From Stappia stellulata DSM 5886 (GTDB taxonomy: Bacteria > Pseudomonadota > Alphaproteobacteria > Rhizobiales > Stappiaceae): DNA of 64,000 bases. Shown here piece by piece: positions 2,991 through 30,441 of the stretch. A program made the translations under genes and the position numbers. Every line of letters begins with the position of its first letter. Position 1 is the stretch's first letter. A model generated the notes under the pieces. The model had not been told where the DNA came from and searched no databases. It was given only the letters and a program-made list of their open reading frames with translations. Where the stretch lies: positions 556,843 through 620,842 of the forward strand of contig NZ_KE384082.1 in assembly GCF_000423705.1 (NCBI RefSeq). The letters are read 5' to 3'.

Positions 2991-3626
2991 TCACCACCTC
3001 ACGATCAGGACATCGCCCGGCCCGTCGGGGCCTGCATAGCGGGCGTGGGCGACGGTCGCGCGCGGACTGACCAGGACGCGAAACAGCTGCCGGAACACCG
3101 CCCGGTGCCAGGGACAGCCGGCAATCGCCAGGGCCTGCCCCTGCAAAAGGAATTTCATCGGCCGGCCCGGCAGGACCCGCAACGCCCCCTCGCCTGCAAA
3201 CGTCCAGGCATTGCGCACCACGGCGCGGGCGAGAAGCGGGGCCGAAAGGTCGACCGGGAGCATGCGCAAGAGGCTGCGGACAACGGCCGGAATGCGATTT
3301 GCGATCACATAGTCCGCCGTGCGCCGTCCGGCGTCGGCGCAGACGGCGCCGCCAATCTTTGGCCAGTCGCGGTAAAGCACCGCGTAGAGACGCTCCACAT
3401 CGCAAACCGGCACCATGTCGCCCGGCGGCGCGGACAGCCAGCAAGACAGTCCGGCGGCGTCGAACAGCCGGTCGGTGTCTGTCCCGCCCTGCAGCGCCGT
3501 CATCGCCGCTGCGAGCTGAAGCGCCGCATTGGGACCGATCACGCCGCTCGCCTTTCCGCCAGCCGACACGGCGCCCGCCGGAAACGCAGTTTCCGCATAG
3601 CGCATCCCGGGTCGGCGCTCAGACAT
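2991..3626 (-). CDS. bchJ: BchJ, bacteriochlorophyll biosynthesis protein (4/8-vinyl reductase family)
   Basis: A 211-aa protein of the BchJ family, historically annotated as divinyl (proto)chlorophyllide vinyl reductase. Its enzymatic role is doubtful because BciA/BciB catalyse that step, so an accessory or porphyrin-binding role is possible. Length and the pattern [45 protein letters not shown] and [15 protein letters not shown] fit the family (V4R-like fold). The ATG overlaps the end of bchE by 8 bp, so the two are probably translationally coupled, as expected from the usual bchE-bchJ order in purple bacteria. Confidence 0.8.
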
Positions 3627-5223
3627 CGGCCATCTGCCCTTCGCTGCCGCCGCAGGCCTTTTGCGCGGCCGCCCGGCTTCGGGCCGCCTTGACCTTTTGC
3701 GCGCGCTCGGCCGCCGCCTCCCAGTCCGAAAGCTGGGCCGGGGCGATCTTGCGCGTCTCGTCGAAGTGGAAATCGACCTTCTTTTTCGACTGCGGCCCCC
3801 AGTAGCCGACCTTGCCGAGATCGTAGAAGGTGCGCTGGAACCCGGCCTTGAGAAAAGCCTTCAGGCATCCAAGCAGATAGCGCCGGCGGAAGCCGCTGCC
3901 GCGCCAGGGATAATCGAGGAGCGCCTTCTTCATGTAGAAGCGCCGATAGTTGTTCATCACCCGGTCAAGCAGCTCGGCCCGGTCCATGGCCTCCGGCTTC
4001 ATGATCGGCGTGACGAAATTGTATTTCGAGAAGTCGAAGACCTCGACCTTGTCGCCAAGATCCTGGTAGAGCGGCGAGAACGGCCAGGGCGTGTACATCG
4101 CCCAGTTGGCGAGATCCGGATTCCAGTCCCGCGCCATCTTGTAGGTCTCTTCCAGCGTCTCCGGCGTCTCATTGTCCAGCCCGACAATGAACTGCGCCTC
4201 GACGAAGATGTCCGCATCGCGCAACAGCTCGATGGCGCGGCGGTTGTCGGCAACCTTGGTTTCCTTGTTGAACCGGTCGAGCTTGAGCTGCGCCGCAGCC
4301 TCCGTCCCAAGCGACACATGCACCAGCCCGGCCTTGCGGTAGAGCGGCAGCAGCGCCTCGTCGCGCAGGATGTCGGTGACGCGCGTGTTGATGCCCCATT
4401 TCACCTTGTCGGGCAGGCCGCGCGCGATCAGCTCCTCGCAAAAGGCGATGAATTTCTTGCGGTTGATGGTGGGTTCCTCGTCGGCAAGGATGAAGAAGCC
4501 GACCTGGTGATCTTCCACCAGCCGCTCGATCTCGTCGACGACCTTCCTCGGATCGCGCACCCGGTAATCGCGCCAGAACTTCCACTGCGAGCAGAAGGAA
4601 CAGGTGAAGGGGCAGCCGCGCGCCATGTTGGGGATCGCGACGCGAACGCCGAGCGGCACATAAATGTAGTTTTCCCACTCCAGCAGCGACCAGTCGGGAT
4701 CGATCCCGTCCAGGTCCTTCACGGTCGGAGCCGCGGGCGTGGCGATGATTTCCTCGCCGCGCCGAAAGGCCAGCCCCTTGATCCCGTCGACCGCATCGCG
4801 CCAGGCGCCGCCGGCGATGGCCGAGACCAGATTGGCGAAGATTTCCTCGCCCTCCCCGCGCACGATCACATCGACCTGCGGCGCCTCGCTCAGCACCTGC
4901 TTGTACATGAAGGTCGCATGCACCCCGCCAAGCACCCGCACCGCGTCGGGGCAGGCATCGCGCGCCACCTCGAGCACGCGCTCTGCCGTATAGATCGAGG
5001 GCGTGATCGCCGTGACGCCGACGATATCCGGCTTGAGCGCGGCGAGGCGCGCGGCCAGGGCCTCATCGTCGATGTGATGCGTCATCGCATCGATGAAATG
5101 AATGTCGTCGAAGCCCGCGCGCCGCAGGCTGCCGGCGAGATAGGCGACCCACGCCGGCGGCCAGCTGCCGGCGATTTCGGCGCCGCCGGAATGATAGTTC
5201 GGATGAACAAGCACGATGCGCAT
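3619..5223 (-). CDS. bchE: BchE, Mg-protoporphyrin IX monomethyl ester oxidative cyclase (anaerobic)
   Basis: A 534-aa B12-dependent radical SAM enzyme that forms ring E of bacteriochlorophyll under low oxygen. The N-terminal cobalamin-binding domain includes [20 protein letters not shown] and [10 protein letters not shown]. The radical SAM cluster motif CPFTCSFC is at Cys204/208/211 within [18 protein letters not shown], followed by [12 protein letters not shown] and WGINTRVTD, all highly characteristic of BchE. The start has a strong GGGAGG site. Two PpsR/CrtJ-type boxes lie 41-78 bp upstream, which predicts aerobic repression. No other photosynthesis genes are in the window, so the pair is detached from any main photosynthesis cluster here. 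Confidence 0.93.
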
Positions 5224-14326: not shown

Positions 14327-15313
14327 TTAGCGTCCGAACTCGAAGGCCTGATTTCCGACGAGGCGCTTGCGCAGCCAGGCCGAAAACTGGTCGACGGCGA
14401 CGATCGTCAGGAACAGCAGGAGGATGATGGCAAGCGTCTTGGCCTCATGGCCGCGGCTGATCGACAACCGGAGCACCTCGCCGATGCCGCCGCCGCCGAC
14501 CGCGCCGATGATTGTCGAGGCCCGCACGTTGATCTCCAGCCGAAGCAGCGCATAGCTCATGAAGTTGGGCGCAACCTGCGGCACGATTGCGAACCACACC
14601 CGCTCGAACCAGTTGGCGCCGACCGCCCGCAAGCCTTCGTCGGGGCGCATGTCGGCATTTTCCACCACCTCGAAGAACATCTTGCCGAGCGAGCCGACCG
14701 TGTGGATCGACACCGCGATGATCGCCGGGATCGGCCCAAGCGTCAGAACCGCGACGAAAAAGCCGGCGATGACGATCTCGGGAAAGGCACGCAGGAGCTC
14801 CATCAAGCGCCGCACGCTTCCGCGCAGCCAGGGATTGCGCACGAGGTTCTTCGCCGCGACGAAGCACAGCAGGAAGCCGAAGGTGAAACCGATCAGCGTC
14901 GACAGGATCGCGATGTTGAGCGTTTCCAGCATCTTGTAGAAATATTCCGGAACGTAGAGGCTCTCGGTCAGATAGACCCGGCCTTCCGGATAATTGTACT
15001 TGAAGCTGCCGTCGTCATAGGGCGACGGCAGGTCGAACAACGCGCGCCAGATCTCCATCGGATCGCGCGGCGCAAGGTCGATGAAGAAATCGAAGAAGTA
15101 GGGCAGCCGGTCGAAGAACTTGCCGGCGTTGGTCTCATTGGCGAACCAGAGCGATCCCGACAGCGCAAGGAAGAGCACGGCAAGCCCGCCGACGGTGTAG
15201 ATCCGCCGGCGCATCGACTGTTCGCGCCAGTGGCGCTCGACAAGCGCGCCTTGCGCGGACAAGGGCGTCGCAGCGCCGGGCGTGGCGGCGGGAGGAAACG
15301 TCGCAAGCGACAT
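14327..15313 (-). CDS. phnE: PhnE-type phosphonate ABC transporter permease
   Basis: A 328-aa inner-membrane permease that forms the transport channel with the second PhnE. Family motifs include LNIAILSTLIGFTFGFLLCFVAAKNL, REFPEIVIAGFF-like RAFPEIVIAGFFVAVLTLGPIPAII, the coupling loop NADMRPDEGLRAVGANWFERV and ASTIIGAVGGGGIGEVL. I start at the ATG at 15313; the ribosome site is weak, and a start a few codons upstream is possible. The gene lies behind a hairpin with a T-tract after phnD, so it is likely expressed less than phnD. Confidence 0.93.
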   Translation of the reverse strand: MSLATFPPAATPGAATPLSAQGALVERHWREQSMRRRIYTVGGLAVLFLALSGSLWFANETNAGKFFDRLPYFFDFFIDLAPRDPMEIWRALFDLPSPYDDGSFKYNYPEGRVYLTESLYVPEYFYKMLETLNIAILSTLIGFTFGFLLCFVAAKNLVRNPWLRGSVRRLMELLRAFPEIVIAGFFVAVLTLGPIPAIIAVSIHTVGSLGKMFFEVVENADMRPDEGLRAVGANWFERVWFAIVPQVAPNFMSYALLRLEINVRASTIIGAVGGGGIGEVLRLSISRGHEAKTLAIILLLFLTIVAVDQFSAWLRKRLVGNQAFEFGR

Positions 15314-25007: not shown

Positions 25008-25202
25008 TCAAAACACCGCACTCCAAGGGTGCACCGCCGGGCAGGCCTCCGGATGCTTGCGCAGGTGGCGGTGCGGCACATTCAGCAGCTCAAGCAAATG
25101 CCCGGCGATGGCGCGCACCTCCTCCTCGCCGAGACCGCTCAGCGCAACACAGTCCAGAAGACTGATCCTGTTTCCGTCCTGACACACCTGACGTAACGTC
25201 AA
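25008..25202 (-). CDS. Small hypothetical protein
   Basis: A possible 64-aa product starting at TTG 25202 (or GTG 25187), with no clear ribosome site. The N-terminal half, RISLLDCVALSGLGEEEVRAIAGH, looks like a genuine helical protein and resembles small Rhizobiales proteins of unknown function. The C-terminal tail ends ACPAVHPWSAVF and carries the only Trp. It is divergent from the halogenase 132 bp away, so a link to that locus cannot be excluded. Confidence 0.35.
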   Translation of the reverse strand: MTLRQVCQDGNRISLLDCVALSGLGEEEVRAIAGHLLELLNVPHRHLRKHPEACPAVHPWSAVF

Positions 25203-25334
25203 GCGGTCATCGAACGCTCATGAAGCCAGATTCGCGAAATTGCGGGCACCAAACCGCGTGGCACTGGCGCTTGACCCATCAGAGGTTGCGGAGCATCCTG
25301 ACGGCGAACCGACCGAAACAGCAAATGCGCCCGC

Positions 25335-26741
25335 ATGAGCCTTTCCAGTCAAACCGACATCGCCGTGATCGGAGGCGGCGCCACCGGATGGATGGCAGCC
25401 GCCTACCTGAAACGCATGTTGCCGTCAGCGGATGTTGCGCTGATGGATTCGCCCTCCGTGGCGCCGCTCGGCGTCGGGGAATCGCTGAACGACATCTCCC
25501 GCCGGTTCAACACCGCCCTCGGTCTCGACGAACGCGCATTCCTGCGCGCCGGCGACGGCACATACAAGATCGGCATCCGCTTCGAGAACTTCGACCGCGC
25601 GGGCGGCGACTTCTTCCATCCCTTCGGCCGCCCCCGAACCCCGGTTCGGGCCGTTCCAGGCGCCCAGGAGGCCTATGCCGCAACCGGACTGTGCCGCCAG
25701 GACCGCTTCGATCCACGCGAGGACGCGCGCGGCTACCACGTCTGCGCGACACGCTATGCCACCTGCTTGCGAGACCTGGCACTTTCGCTCGGCGTTCGAC
25801 ATATCGAACGCCATGCCCGCGAGGTCTTGCGCAAGGGCGATACCATCGCAACGGTCGAGGGGCTTTCGGCGGATCTCTTCATCGACTGCACGGGCTTTCG
25901 CGCGTTGCTGATCGGCGATGCGCTCGCCACGCCCTTCGAACCCTTGTCCGGCCTGCTTCCCAACGACGCCGCCGTTGCCCTGCGCGTGCCCTACGACGCG
26001 GTGGCAGAACGCCCCTTCCCCTACACCAGATGCACGGCGATGGAGGCCGGCTGGATCTGGCGCATCCCGCTCTGGTCGAGGCTCGGCGCCGGCTATTGCT
26101 ACAGCTCCCGCCACATCTCCGCCGCCCAGGCCGAAAAAAGCTTGCGCGCGCAGCTTGGCCTGGACACAGACAGACCCGAAGGCACGAACGACGGCCTCGA
26201 GCCGATGCATATCGCCTTTCGCCACGGGCGTCATACACACGCCCGACGCGGAAACTGCGTGGCCCTCGGCGGCGCCTTCGGTTTTATCGAGCCGCTGGAA
26301 TCGACCGGCCTGTCGATGACCCAGGCCGCCATCATGGCACTGGTGCCGGGACTTGCCGACCTTGACCAGTGGGACCGGCTTTGCCGACGGCGGTTCGACA
26401 CGACGGCCGACTTCGTCTTCGCCCACTACTGGCTCAGCGACCGCACGGACACGCCCTACTGGCGCGACGTCAAGCAGCTCACCCCGAGCCCGCTTCTGTC
26501 GCGGGTGCTGGGATGTGCCGCGGCGGGCGACTACACGCAGATCGATCGCGACCCGGGCTTTTTCTACCGGCCGCACAACTGGGATGTCGTCCTGTCCGGA
26601 ATGGGGGCCTTCGACGGTCGCCGCGCGCTCGAGCCCTTTCTTCCCGAGGACCGTGACAGTCCGGATCTCGTCTCCTATCTCGCCACCCATGTACACGGAT
26701 CGCCCGAATGGCCCCGGATCCCCGCGCACAACGCAACATGA
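25335..26741 (+). CDS. Flavin-dependent tryptophan-halogenase-family protein
   Basis: A 468-aa FAD-dependent halogenase. The FAD-binding GxGxxG is IGGGATGW (12-19) and the halogenase signature WxWxIP is WIWRIP (240-245). The HOCl-activating lysine is at Lys78 in GTYKIGIRF, matching Lys79 of PrnA/RebH. GFIEPLESTGLSMTQ near residue 320 carries the acidic residue expected near the substrate. It therefore looks catalytically competent. The substrate could be free Trp, a small aromatic or a peptide Trp. Its stop overlaps the next gene (ATGA), and the two-gene unit is convergent with the precursor-peptide operon, which suggests one biosynthetic locus. Confidence 0.88.
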   Translation: MSLSSQTDIAVIGGGATGWMAAAYLKRMLPSADVALMDSPSVAPLGVGESLNDISRRFNTALGLDERAFLRAGDGTYKIGIRFENFDRAGGDFFHPFGRPRTPVRAVPGAQEAYAATGLCRQDRFDPREDARGYHVCATRYATCLRDLALSLGVRHIERHAREVLRKGDTIATVEGLSADLFIDCTGFRALLIGDALATPFEPLSGLLPNDAAVALRVPYDAVAERPFPYTRCTAMEAGWIWRIPLWSRLGAGYCYSSRHISAAQAEKSLRAQLGLDTDRPEGTNDGLEPMHIAFRHGRHTHARRGNCVALGGAFGFIEPLESTGLSMTQAAIMALVPGLADLDQWDRLCRRRFDTTADFVFAHYWLSDRTDTPYWRDVKQLTPSPLLSRVLGCAAAGDYTQIDRDPGFFYRPHNWDVVLSGMGAFDGRRALEPFLPEDRDSPDLVSYLATHVHGSPEWPRIPAHNAT

Positions 26742-27358
26742 GACTTGAGCCCGTCCGCACGCTCACGGTGGAGGGCATCCCGTTGCACCTTTACCGCTGG
26801 ACAGACGAAGAGGCGCTTGCCGAGATCCGCGCGGCGATCCTGGCCCGGGAAGCCGAGATCCTGCGCCTGCCGCGCAGCGTGGAATGGAGCGTGCGGCACG
26901 ACCGCGTCGCCTCGTCGCGCTATGCCAGCTACAATCTGCTGGCACTGCCGGACCCGCCTTTTCAGGCCCTCGGACGCGCAATCCGCGCCAGCATCGATGC
27001 CCTGCGCGCGGCGCGCGGCCTGCCCGAAAAACAGATGTACATCCAGTGCTGGTCGAACATCCTGCGCGCCGGTGAGGGCCTGCCGCGTCATGCCCACCCC
27101 TACCCGCTCCACGGCCATCTCAATGTCTCCACCTCGGGAAGCGTGACCCGCTACGGCGCCGGCGACCCGGTCGAGATCGACAACCGGCCGGGCGACATCA
27201 CAGTGTTCGCCAAACCCGGCCTTGCCCATGACGTGCCCGCCTATACCGGCCCGGACGCCCGCATTTCCATCGCCTTCGACCTGTTGCCGGTTGCCTTCGT
27301 CGACGCGGACCCGCGCTGGCGAAAGCGGCATGCGGAGCGCAGTTTCATTCCGTTTTGA
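26738..27358 (+). CDS. Putative 2OG-Fe(II) oxygenase-like protein
   Basis: A 206-aa double-stranded beta-helix protein resembling putative 2OG-Fe(II) oxygenases that contain W-x-N...H-x-H near the metal site. The relevant segment is QCWSNILRAGEGLPRHAHPYPLHGHLNVSTSG (residues 103-134), with candidate iron ligands His118/His120. GDITVFAKPGLAHDVPAYTG follows (His164), and RISIAFDLL holds an Arg175 that could bind 2-oxoglutarate. Assignment of individual ligands is tentative. It overlaps the halogenase stop by 4 bp (ATGA), so the two products probably act on the same substrate. A longer start at 26708 is possible but not needed. Confidence 0.6.
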   Translation: MRLEPVRTLTVEGIPLHLYRWTDEEALAEIRAAILAREAEILRLPRSVEWSVRHDRVASSRYASYNLLALPDPPFQALGRAIRASIDALRAARGLPEKQMYIQCWSNILRAGEGLPRHAHPYPLHGHLNVSTSGSVTRYGAGDPVEIDNRPGDITVFAKPGLAHDVPAYTGPDARISIAFDLLPVAFVDADPRWRKRHAERSFIPF

Positions 27359-27375
27359 AAAGACCGGCCGTCCGA

Positions 27376-28890
27376 TCACGCATCCGGGCAAAGCGCCGTT
27401 TCGATTTCGCCCGCCAGCGCATCGAGATCCGCTTCGCGCAGCGCCGCAAGCCGCGCCGATGCGACCCGGTGACCGCAGACAAGCGGCGACAAGGACATGC
27501 CGCCCTCAACGATCACCGGCCCGTCTGCGGTGTCGACAAAGGGAAATTTCGGCACGGAAAGCCGCATCAGCTCGGCGGATTCGCGGCGGCGCACCGCCGC
27601 TTCGACCTCCGGTGCAAGCGCGACCGACACCGGCAGCTCCGCGATCGTGCGCTCAAGCCAGCCGGGCGCGCGCGCACCGGCGAGATAGCCGGCCATCAGT
27701 TCGCCGTAGAGCACCGTGGCGCGTGCGACGAAACGGCCCTCGCCGCCCGGTCCGGCAAACGGCGCGCCGCGCGCCAGAAGCACCTCGCGCAAGCGCAAGG
27801 CGTCGTCGCCCGCCTCGCGAAACCCGCGCACGACCTCGCCGCCACGCCCCCGCGCCGGCACGCACCGCCCATGGAGACAGGGAAGGTTGCACAGATCCTC
27901 ATCGACGATCTCGTGCCGGGAAAGCGCAACGCGCCCAACGGGGTCTAGATGAAAATGGCGAACGCTGTGCCGGCGCGCCGCCGTCATCGACAGGCCCGCG
28001 CGCGACATCGCCGGATCGGCCCCCGCCGGCGGCAGAAAGCCGGTGCGCGACAGCGGCGGAGTCGATAAATCGGCCCCCGGATAGACGCAGGTCTCGCAAT
28101 CGACGAGCCAGGGCGTTCCGCGGCGGGCGACGAGATTGGAGGCAACCGCATCGCGCGAATTGGTCACCCAAAGCCAGAAGAGGAGATGGCCCGCGTGCCG
28201 GTAAAAGGCGGACACCTCACCGCTCGCCGTCGCCGGCGCCGTGTCGATCCAGGCGCACCAGCCGTATCCCGACCGCTCCAGCGTCTGCGGGGCAAACAGG
28301 GCCGAACCCGCCCCCTGTCCGGCAAGGAACCCGGCGAACCCGTGCCACAGGCGTTCGCGCGCAACCGAACGCGGCTTGTATGCCAGCCGGCCGCCCCCCT
28401 CGAAGTCGATCCGTCTGACGCAGGCGCCGCGATGATACTCGCCGCAAGCACCGGCGATCCGCTCGACGGCCCCCGTTTCCGGGATGGCGAAATCGGCCTC
28501 AAGGCGCGCCGCGTCCAGGCACCGCCGCGACAGCATTGCCGCAACGCCGGCCGTCCAGTCCTCCAGAAAGACCGCGAGATGCCGGCCGAGACTGCGCGCG
28601 CCGCCTTGGCACGCGGCCTCCTGAAAGGCAGGAAAATCCGCGTGTCCCGCAAGAGCCGCGAGCGGAAGGCCGGCGCCGGCGGCCTGTGCCATCACAATGT
28701 CGGGAACCGCGATCCCGGCAAGCGCACGCGCGCCTTCGCGCACCAGATCCGCGCGCGCCTCGCCGGCGAGGCGGATCGCCGGCCCCGGCCCTCCGCCGGC
28801 GCGTGCCACAGCCTCTGTCACCGCCTGCCCGGCCAGCGCGTGGCACACGTCGAACCCGGGCAGGGCCTCCGCGCAACCGCGGTAGATCAC
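27376..28890 (-). CDS. Stand-alone LanM-type (DUF4135) lanthipeptide dehydratase-like protein
   Basis: A 504-aa protein that matches only the N-terminal dehydratase domain of type II lanthipeptide synthetases (LanM), which are normally about 1000 aa. Visible LanM elements are RLAYKPRS (169-175), RSGYGW (206-211), AFYRHAGHLL (228-237), TNSRDAVASNLV (243-254) and PWLVDCETCVYPG (260-272). The last two correspond to the kinase-like active-site region. The C-terminal LanC cyclase domain is absent, and the frame stops instead. The GTG start at 28890 overlaps the stop of the JmjC gene (GTGA). In LanM this domain phosphorylates and then eliminates Ser/Thr. Here the target is unknown. Confidence 0.75.
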   Translation of the reverse strand: MIYRGCAEALPGFDVCHALAGQAVTEAVARAGGGPGPAIRLAGEARADLVREGARALAGIAVPDIVMAQAAGAGLPLAALAGHADFPAFQEAACQGGARSLGRHLAVFLEDWTAGVAAMLSRRCLDAARLEADFAIPETGAVERIAGACGEYHRGACVRRIDFEGGGRLAYKPRSVARERLWHGFAGFLAGQGAGSALFAPQTLERSGYGWCAWIDTAPATASGEVSAFYRHAGHLLFWLWVTNSRDAVASNLVARRGTPWLVDCETCVYPGADLSTPPLSRTGFLPPAGADPAMSRAGLSMTAARRHSVRHFHLDPVGRVALSRHEIVDEDLCNLPCLHGRCVPARGRGGEVVRGFREAGDDALRLREVLLARGAPFAGPGGEGRFVARATVLYGELMAGYLAGARAPGWLERTIAELPVSVALAPEVEAAVRRRESAELMRLSVPKFPFVDTADGPVIVEGGMSLSPLVCGHRVASARLAALREADLDALAGEIETALCPDA

Positions 28891-30128
28891 GCCGGCGGAC
28901 AGAGTGTGAGAAGCCCGTTGCGGGCAAGCAGGCGCACCAGTTCGACGCGCGCGTCGATGTCGAGGGGCTCCGGCAGGTCGCTTGCGCGAAACGGCGCCTG
29001 CGAACGCGCGATCCAGCGCAACGCGCCGCCGGCGACCAGCGGCGCCTCGATACACCCGGGCTGGAGATCCTCGTCGGTGGCAAGCCCGATGCCGGGGAAC
29101 TGGATGCGCACCGCAGCGCCCTTTTCGTAGACGTGACAGGGGCATTCGGGACGGCGCAGAACCAGCGTGTCGGCGTCGATGTCTTCCGCCCGCGTCGCGA
29201 CCCGGATGTGTTCGCCCGGCAGGGGACGCAACTGCGCACCGAGATTTTCCATCAACCGCTCCATCGCGAGCTTGCGCGGCCGTCGCTTGCCGGCGATTTC
29301 GCCAAGATGCGCCAGTTTTTCCGCGCACAAGGCGTCGAAGGCCTCTCCGTCGAGCTGGAGGATCGAGCTGCGGAAGGCCGGATCCTGTTCCGCCGCGACC
29401 TGAACCAGCGCCGACAGATAGTCGACCCAGCGCAGCGGCCTGAACCCCATCGTCAGATGAAAGGAATGGCCCTCGAGCGTGTGCGGCCCATGCACGAGCC
29501 CGCGCGGCACATACAAAAGATCGCCCGGCTCCAGATCGAAGACGGCGGAAGGGTCTCCCACGCTGTCCTGGTCGATCAAGTGGATCTGGCGGTCGATGGG
29601 GAGCTCTACGCGCTGGTCGAAGAGCGGCCAGCGCTTGGTGCCTTCAAGCTGCAGGATGAAGACGTCGTGCGTGTCGAAATGGGCGAGGAACCCTTGCTGC
29701 TCGGTCGGGGTCAAAAACCCGTTGGCCGCGACCTTGCCGCCGAATTCCGCCTCGATGGCGCGCGCCACCCGCGCCACCGGAACCGACATCGTGTCCATGC
29801 CGTTGAGGATCAGCGTGCAGCCGTCCGCCAGCCGGTCCACCGACCAGCGAAACAGGCTCTTGCCCTGCGAGGGATGCGGCATCGCGAAATAGCTGCCGCG
29901 CCGGTTGACCCTCAGCACGCGGCGCAGCTTTTCCTCCTGGCTCCAGAGCAAATGCTCGAAGCCCTCGATATCCGGGAATCCCGGATAGCGCTCGCCAACA
30001 CCGCGCCCGGTGAGATGCAACGGTTTCTTCTCGTAGTAGTCGGCGAAGAACGCCTCCACCGAGAGCGGCGCGAGCAGCGAGGCGAGGCTCGCCGACGCTT
30101 CCGCCGGCGTGCTTGCCTGCAGTGTCAT
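28887..30128 (-). CDS. JmjC/cupin-domain hydroxylase (ribosomal-oxygenase-like)
   Basis: A 413-aa Fe(II)/2-oxoglutarate oxygenase of the cupin_4/JmjC group, related to the protein hydroxylases that modify ribosomal proteins. The metal triad is HFD (His150, Asp152) in FLAHFDTHDVFILQLEG, plus His213 in DLLYVPRGLVHGPHT. YYEKKPLHL near residue 31 is the usual N-terminal anchor. Given that the NHLP precursor is 16 bp upstream and the LanM-like gene overlaps downstream, it probably hydroxylates the peptide; this is an inference. The ATG at 30128 is preferred over 30158. Confidence 0.8.
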   Translation of the reverse strand: MTLQASTPAEASASLASLLAPLSVEAFFADYYEKKPLHLTGRGVGERYPGFPDIEGFEHLLWSQEEKLRRVLRVNRRGSYFAMPHPSQGKSLFRWSVDRLADGCTLILNGMDTMSVPVARVARAIEAEFGGKVAANGFLTPTEQQGFLAHFDTHDVFILQLEGTKRWPLFDQRVELPIDRQIHLIDQDSVGDPSAVFDLEPGDLLYVPRGLVHGPHTLEGHSFHLTMGFRPLRWVDYLSALVQVAAEQDPAFRSSILQLDGEAFDALCAEKLAHLGEIAGKRRPRKLAMERLMENLGAQLRPLPGEHIRVATRAEDIDADTLVLRRPECPCHVYEKGAAVRIQFPGIGLATDEDLQPGCIEAPLVAGGALRWIARSQAPFRASDLPEPLDIDARVELVRLLARNGLLTLCPPA

Positions 30129-30144
30129 GGTGCTCTCCCGTGCG

Positions 30145-30441
30145 TCAGAAAAGCTCAAGTTGAATGGCGATCACCTGGGCGGCGATCGTCATCAGGTCGT
30201 CCCTGTCGAGCTTCAGCAGATCGGGGGGAGAGGGAATGACGATATTCTTGTGGGTCTTGGTGTCGAAGTGAAACTGGACCTTGACGTCGCCGTCCTTTTC
30301 GAACTCGAAGCCCTCTTCCTCAAGCATCCGGTGCGGTTGCTCCGACAGCATCTTGGCGTAATCCGGATCGGTCCAGGCCTTGACCACGATCCGCGCCATG
30401 ATGTCCCGATTTTCCCTGGAATCCTTGGGTGAACTTACCAT
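30145..30441 (-). CDS. NHLP-type (nitrile hydratase leader peptide) RiPP precursor candidate
   Basis: A 98-aa acidic peptide that resembles nitrile-hydratase-alpha-like leader peptides. DIMARIVVKAWTDPDYAKML (residues 13-32) matches the conserved R/K-AW-DP-[FY] helix. It is followed by MLEEEGFEFEKDGDVKVQFHFD and NIVIPSPPDLLKLDRDDL, the usual proline turn and final helix. The family's GG/GA cleavage site is missing: the peptide simply ends IAAQVIAIQLELF. It lacks the CxxCSC metal motif of real nitrile hydratase. The ATG at 30441 fits the family length and has AGGGAG upstream; an ATG at 30399 would cut into the conserved start. It is the first gene of an operon with the JmjC and LanM-like genes. 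Confidence 0.7.
   Translation of the reverse strand: MVSSPKDSRENRDIMARIVVKAWTDPDYAKMLSEQPHRMLEEEGFEFEKDGDVKVQFHFDTKTHKNIVIPSPPDLLKLDRDDLMTIAAQVIAIQLELF

Follow-up and report, generated by a model that had tools for sequence, protein, structure and literature searches.

A clade-restricted, probably RiPP-type gene cassette in Stappia with an apparently core-less NHLP protein and a possible tryptophan-tailed acceptor

Six co-located genes between phnF and doeB were found to form a clade-restricted cassette in the window analyzed here, a 64,000-nucleotide stretch of the marine bacterium Stappia stellulata DSM 5886 (contig NZ_KE384082.1, positions 556,843 to 620,842). The cassette encodes four enzymes, a protein of the nitrile hydratase leader peptide (NHLP) family, and a small protein that we call sm. 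It probably carries out modification of the kind seen in ribosomally synthesized and post-translationally modified peptides (RiPPs), and the RiPP-like character proposed for the locus by an earlier sequence-only reading was supported. All five open reading frames named in that reading, for a halogenase, a 2-oxoglutarate (2OG) oxygenase-like protein, a DUF4135 protein, a JmjC protein, and the NHLP protein, were present and intact at the places given, as seen by translation and family matching. Its boundary, 25335..30441, was too narrow and leaves out the sm gene at 25008-25202 on the reverse strand. A more specific and rather doubtful model is that of a split RiPP, in which the core-less NHLP protein would act in trans as a docking leader, and a common alphaproteobacterial domain that gained an HPWSAVF tail would be the modified substrate. 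The best reading, although we would not call it probable, is somewhat more general: a proteusin-like system whose leader and core are carried by two different proteins. Halogenation of the sm tail has about the same prospects. All of the catalytic steps discussed below are predictions from sequence.

The genes are closely packed. On the forward strand, the gene for a flavin-dependent tryptophan (Trp) halogenase family protein (25335..26741, 468 aa; PF04820, E 3e-98) overlaps by 4 bp the gene for a putative 2OG-Fe(II) oxygenase (26738..27358, 206 aa). On the reverse strand, the NHLP gene (30145..30441, 98 aa), the gene for a MINA/NO66-like JmjC oxygenase with a C-terminal extension (28887..30128, 413 aa; PF08007, 89 bits), and the gene for a stand-alone LanM-type dehydration domain, DUF4135 (27376..28890, 504 aa; PF13575, 155.5 bits), form one tight operon with gaps of 16 bp and -4 bp, the GTG start of the DUF4135 gene overlapping the JmjC stop. 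The sequence-only reading gave 17 bp between these two convergent operons, which is correct for the window and is not conserved: three relatives have 27, -14, and -11 bp there. Thus, the exact gap sizes vary while the close packing is general. The sm gene (25008..25202, reverse strand), a decayed copy identified by tblastn, translation, and alignment, is the sixth gene of the cassette. It is divergent from the halogenase gene, and its position is the same in the relatives. The intergenic region between the two, as seen from sequence and layout (25203..25334, no strand), is 132 bp in the window and 166-227 bp in three relatives.

The distribution of the cassette was narrow. The DUF4135 protein was matched in 4 of 87 family genomes, all four in the genus Stappia, and the NHLP protein was found in the same 4 of the 14 genus genomes. 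In those four (three relatives and the window), the five genes sit between phnF and doeB in an unchanged order. Stappia stellulata SN27-3 (locus L058) has the same cassette, with an intact sm at 14995-15285, and the same flanks. One further genus genome, G077 (locus L047), lacks all five genes together at the same site and retains an intact sm, with the gap between doeB and sm lying on one unbroken stretch. Co-conservation of the five genes, which the sequence-only reading had proposed as its own check, was therefore seen both in their joint presence and in their joint loss. The sequence upstream of sm is partly retained in G077 (L047 10739-10859). The five genes may have been lost by a real deletion, or their absence may be an error of assembly in a genome that is 85% complete. 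The nine other genus genomes have no DUF4135 protein, NHLP protein, or sm. Five of these were inspected at the phnF-doeB site: phnF adjoins doeB in two, with less than 50 bp between the aligned ends (L071 and L074), other genes lie between them in two (L070 and L072), and no phn match was found within the stretch inspected in one (L073). We take the left flank of the site to be C-P (carbon-phosphorus) lyase genes (phnJ-G and phnF) and the right flank to be an ectoine-degradation-like set that includes doeB. A separate variable insert, comprising a flavin adenine dinucleotide (FAD)-dependent frame, presumably sulfide-quinone-reductase-like, and one or two smaller proteins, was seen at the same site (L009 13652-15925, L011 3547-5711, and L072 7354-9024). 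The phnF-doeB site appears to be a hotspot for insertions.

Ratios of nonsynonymous to synonymous substitution (dN/dS) were calculated pairwise by the Nei-Gojobori method with Jukes-Cantor correction, using four sequences and six pairs per gene. The five genes gave the following ranges: NHLP, 0.10-0.24; JmjC, 0.09-0.21; halogenase, 0.21-0.41; 2OG protein, 0.22-0.39; DUF4135, 0.31-0.47. For comparison, doeB gave 0.06-0.24, and sm gave 0.09-0.18. The phnG sequence of L011, which was out of frame with one stop, was left out of account. These ratios indicate that the five genes are under purifying selection. Since the genes are syntenic in 4 of the 14 genus genomes and their dN/dS values are 0.09-0.47, the cassette is more than a chance arrangement. 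Searches beyond the genus were less informative. NHLP matches were found in 1 of 397 genomes of an order-level sample that was drawn evenly and holds few genus members. Contig scans found no DUF4135 protein and, with two short patterns only, two JmjC loci, one of which is the S. stellulata cassette; both scans are weak as evidence on distribution. Class searches scored few candidates per genome (at most 13 for sm, 3 for DUF4135, and 4 for the halogenase among the matches listed), and the 1e-90 cut-off used with the halogenase was too strict.

The NHLP protein looks like a leader without the usual core. It matches PF02979 with 30.6 bits, above the cut-off of 27.2, and TIGR03793 with 37.3 bits, below the NCBI cut-off of 50.9. 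Residues 11-87 match PDB 8tb1 (E 7e-4), a nuclear magnetic resonance structure of a proteusin leader, and the ranges of the 8tb1 and TIGR03793 matches were used to set the boundary between leader and tail. By PF02979 and 8tb1, the protein has the leader of about 80 residues that is typical of proteusins, although TIGR03793 remains under its cut-off. The sequence KLDRDDL at residues 77-83 is an LXXXXL motif, both leucines of which are invariant in four genomes. At the position expected for the double-glycine (GG) boundary, all four genomes have AA, and no modifiable core follows it. The tail reads QVIAIQLELF in the window; its last six residues are invariant, and 3 of its 10 positions vary among the four genomes. 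None of the four genomes has a Trp, Ser, Thr, or Cys among the last ten residues, which rules this stretch out as a core for halogenation or dehydration. The sole Trp of the protein, W23, is in the leader domain. The earlier proposal of the NHLP peptide as halogenated substrate was therefore not borne out, and the NHLP tail was ruled out as a halogenase target for lack of Trp. No NHLP paralogue was found in the same genome (other matches had E > 0.2), and no plasmid homologues were found at the limits used.

The halogenase has the features of its family. GxGxxG, a catalytic Lys, WxWxIP, and a catalytic Glu define the flavin-dependent Trp halogenases. Lys78 and WIWRIP (residues 240-245), named in the sequence-only reading, were both seen, and K78, WIWxIP (x being Arg or Glu), and EPLEST are present in all four genomes, as the motif definition of the family calls for. 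The nearest solved structures are Trp 5-halogenases. In a profile alignment, Arg412, which is Arg in all four genomes, aligns with PyrH E452, which we take to be the equivalent of the Glu that holds free Trp by its amino group (E461 in Thal and E450 in PrnA). In Thal, E461 is in contact with this group of the free amino acid (PMC12247023). The catalytic Lys and Glu of RebH are K79 and E357, in agreement with the motifs seen here, and BrvH, in which the RebH residues of this loop are missing, does not accept Trp (PMC5945002). Arg412 at the Glu position, along with the BrvH precedent, is a hint, although no proof, that free Trp is not the substrate. A Trp brominase, SrpI, depends on LXXXXL in the leader of its proteusin (NLTEEQL in SrpE) and takes a C-terminal Trp (PMC10858898), and it brominates the Trp of penta- to heptapeptides (PMC12615548).

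A candidate for such a substrate lies beside the halogenase gene. Intact sm (97 aa) was found at L009, L010, L011, and L047; its tail reads HPWSAVF in three of these copies and HPWSGRF in one, and its sole Trp, W93, is within the tail in all four. The decayed sm of the window also keeps the C-terminal HPWSAVF. In the genus, sm is present in 5 of 14 genomes and at the cassette site only (E 0.001). No Pfam or NCBIfam family matched sm above cut-off. The sm-type domain of about 90 aa, with the sequence pattern MLTxEDCxALCxLTEEEVxAIAEHEHxPE (L018-L046), is alphaproteobacterial and was matched in 30 of 385 sampled class genomes, its own included. A Trp in the tail was seen in 1 of the 29 class homologues read, a distant one, and WSxxF was seen in none of them. 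It seems that a widespread domain gained a short, conserved Trp/Ser tail at the cassette locus.

The DUF4135 protein was aligned with CylM and LicM2 and across the four genomes. Its only Pfam match is PF13575, no LanC domain was found, and TIGR03897 reaches 125 bits vs. a cut-off of 304; a LanM lanthipeptide synthetase combines the dehydration domain with a LanC cyclase, and this protein has the first alone. It has 504 aa and is the sole DUF4135 match in the genome. The earlier remark that a LanC cyclase is absent agrees with this. Outside the genus, DUF4135 matches in 7 of 385 class genomes fell within open frames as long as full LanM proteins (791-1100 aa). The counterparts of CylM K274, D347, N352, and D364 are K172, D247, N252, and D264, and those of H254, R506, and T512 are H153, R386, and T392, with R386 and T392 assigned from the LicM2 alignment and a six-residue spacing; all are invariant in the four genomes. 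In CylM, K274, D347, N352, and D364 serve the kinase, and D252, H254, R506, and T512 serve elimination, with T512 being critical; the H349A variant still modified its substrate, slowly (PMC4550811). Since the T512 counterpart is kept and CylM H349A is still active, it is plausible that the DUF4135 protein is capable of dehydration.

Invariant residues were also seen in the two putative oxygenases. An HxD...H iron triad defines the JmjC protein hydroxylases. In the JmjC protein, H150, D152, and H213 are invariant in four genomes, and this triad within a PF08007 domain agrees with the ROX family. Its closest solved relatives in the PDB are chains of MINA and NO66 (E 9e-25 to 2e-23), which are named histidyl hydroxylases. 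PF08007 proteins with RiPP recognition element (RRE)-like domains, and bacterial homologues in RiPP-like contexts, have been described (PMC12710340, 2025). The 2OG protein matches PF13759 with 28.5 bits, barely above the cut-off of 27, and its H118, H120, H164, and R175 are invariant in four genomes; it had no plasmid homologues at the limits used. JmjC homologues were found in 132 plasmid records. The surroundings of two of these (32% and 31% identity, nearly full length) were read, and each has a small peptide gene nearby, in one case of the GG-leader type. On the Dolichospermum plasmid pUHCC0315a (L064 6637-9122), the GG-leader-type peptide gene is two genes upstream of JmjC, and the gene between them encodes a 251-aa protein with a weak, below-cut-off match to the ribonucleotide reductase small chain; this gene row looks like a RiPP locus. 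On a Streptomyces clavuligerus plasmid (L065 7757-9152), the gene for a 48-aa acidic, Asp-Pro-rich peptide directly precedes JmjC, with S9 peptidase and ABC transporter genes nearby.

The best reading, with leader and core on different proteins, would use these parts as follows. The NHLP protein would be a docking leader with no modifiable core of its own, and its LXXXXL helix would hold the halogenase and perhaps other enzymes too; JmjC may bind the NHLP protein through its C-terminal extension. The leader could dock the halogenase and has no core, and sm beside the halogenase gene bears one Trp and a Ser, so the most likely acceptor would be the sm C-terminal tail, ARPxVHPWS[A/G][V/R]F. The halogenase would halogenate Trp93, DUF4135 would phosphorylate and probably eliminate at Ser94, and the two oxygenases may hydroxylate nearby His, Pro, or Phe, or else residues of the NHLP protein. 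Since neither a C39 peptidase in the genome nor a GG site was found, the product may remain a modified intracellular protein; alternatively, a housekeeping protease may trim it. Dedicated export was considered and rejected on this ground, as Peptidase_C39 had no match in the genome with a control that was positive in 8 of 14. A PEARL/pearlin pathway, with C-terminal extension of a scaffold peptide, was also set aside; the genome search for Lant_dehydr_N was empty, but its control scored 0 of 14 and it is no proof.

Several observations weigh against this model. In the window, sm has lost the ATG start of its relatives and 44 of about 96 codons, in frame, and the enzymes and NHLP protein are intact despite this decay. 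In pairs that include the window strain, dN/dS is not clearly elevated, the values for DUF4135 being slightly higher. G077 retains sm intact and lacks all five genes, although this genome is 85% complete. At the 29 class loci read, none of the five was matched within about 1.5 kb of the sm homologue, and because the domain is widespread in the class without the five genes nearby, it has some other job. The Trp in the SrpI/SrpE system is C-terminal, whereas four residues follow it in sm. DUF4135 has Val249 for CylM H349 and Glu151 for CylM D252 in all four genomes, and the C-terminal 117 residues of JmjC, searched up to E 10, drew no Pfam match and thus give no sign of an RRE-like winged-helix domain.

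Another possible explanation, which we consider unlikely, is that the NHLP protein is itself a precursor. Its C-terminal stretch TIAAQVIAIQLELF would be the core, with Thr85 phosphorylated or dehydrated by DUF4135 and with JmjC as a hydroxylase, while the halogenase and 2OG protein would act on an unlinked substrate. The shared tight operon of NHLP, JmjC, and DUF4135, the invariance of T85 and the last six residues in the four genomes, and the small peptide genes near the two plasmid JmjC homologues all agree with this. However, neither a GG site nor any other clear point of cleavage is present, the 8tb1 leader match reaches residue 87 and so passes Thr85 (a statement on its range only), and a tail without Trp would leave a co-inherited halogenase without a target.

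Two further explanations are more improbable still. The halogenase and 2OG protein could act on a small molecule such as free Trp or another indole, with NHLP-JmjC-DUF4135 as a separate unit that merely shares the site. Free-Trp 5-halogenases are indeed the nearest solved relatives of the halogenase, and the operons are convergent with a variable gap. The five genes are nevertheless together in all four genomes and absent together in G077, and Arg stands at the aligned position of the amino-group-binding Glu. Searches of the 14 genus genomes with NHLP and DUF4135 turned up no relative with one operon only, the halogenase not having been searched separately in the genus. Alternatively, the pathway of the window strain could be a remnant, with sm as a decayed precursor gene and the enzymes as recent leftovers without a product. 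This would account for a window copy of sm that, unlike the four others, has neither its start nor 44 of its internal codons, but not for five other genes that are intact and, short of a formal branch test, show no clear rise of dN/dS in pairs with the window strain.

Compared to known systems, the parts of the cassette are familiar: PoyF, PoyI, and SrpI are known from proteusins, and BipG and EmbM from other RiPPs. The sequence-only reading held that no named RiPP class has this set. If this is meant as foreign to every class, it was not supported, because proteusins already pair an NHLP leader with the stand-alone LanM-type dehydratase PoyF and the Fe/2OG oxygenase PoyI (PMC9505594), and SrpI is the Trp brominase of another proteusin pathway (PMC10858898). 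Through its LanM-type dehydration domain, the cassette also has a maturase characteristic of proteusins, and neither a radical SAM protein nor a YcaO was found among its genes. We found no published description of NHLP, JmjC, DUF4135, and halogenase together in a search that left subscription literature largely uncovered. One Stappia paper gives an unspecified RiPP-like cluster (PMC12997852).

The srp proteusins (SrpE, SrpI, and the YcaO SrpC) share with the cassette an NHLP leader with LXXXXL, a flavin Trp halogenase, and a short Trp-bearing target (PMC10858898). In contrast, the cassette has no YcaO, its NHLP protein has no Trp core or GG site, it adds JmjC and LanM-type enzymes, and its Trp tail is on a second, non-NHLP protein. 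The polytheonamide (poy) system likewise has an NHLP precursor, the stand-alone LanM-type PoyF, and the Fe/2OG PoyI (PMC9505594), but the cassette lacks its radical SAM epimerase, methylases, N-methyltransferase, and protease gene, and has a halogenase and JmjC instead. In phospeptin (EmbA/EmbM), a LanM-type dehydration domain also stands alone without LanC; EmbM is said to lack the elimination residues and to leave phosphate on Thr, and EmbA has a Nif11 leader with a GG site (PMC9505594), whereas the cassette DUF4135 keeps the counterparts of CylM R506, T512, and H254. Dehydrazoles (carnazolamide, CcaM) combine an NHLP precursor with a DUF4135 dehydration domain, but there the domain is part of a fusion with a class III-type cyclase and acts together with a YcaO, and the cassette has neither (PMC10676384). 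BipG is, like the cassette protein, a JmjC oxygenase; it is known to act on a ribosomal peptide and differs in hydroxylating ornithine in the biphenomycin precursor (PMC12707348).

The split layout of leader and core would be unusual if confirmed. If the split RiPP model is true, a proteusin leader can act in trans on a second folded protein, and peptide halogenation would serve as a protein tag, beyond its use as a step toward a secreted peptide. It would also provide a leader/halogenase pair from a genus that offers a named cassette-bearing strain, Stappia stellulata SN27-3, and a JmjC-LanM-halogenase combination with a reaction order testable in Escherichia coli.

Halogenases and B12 radical SAM genes were also seen elsewhere. 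Plasmid halogenases are 31-39% identical to that of the cassette among the 25 listed of 91 records. The two loci read, both from Sphingomonas, are beside TonB-receptor genes, one with SapC and one with DUF6445; no NHLP or LanM was annotated within 6 kb of either, in a gene table that is incomplete. In the window, far from the cassette, BchJ (TIGR02019, 122.6 bits) lies beside BchE (TIGR02026, 831 bits) on the reverse strand at 2994-5223. The B12 radical SAM gene of the window (3622-5223) is this BchE, a bacteriochlorophyll cyclase, in agreement with the earlier remark that the locus has no partner of that type.

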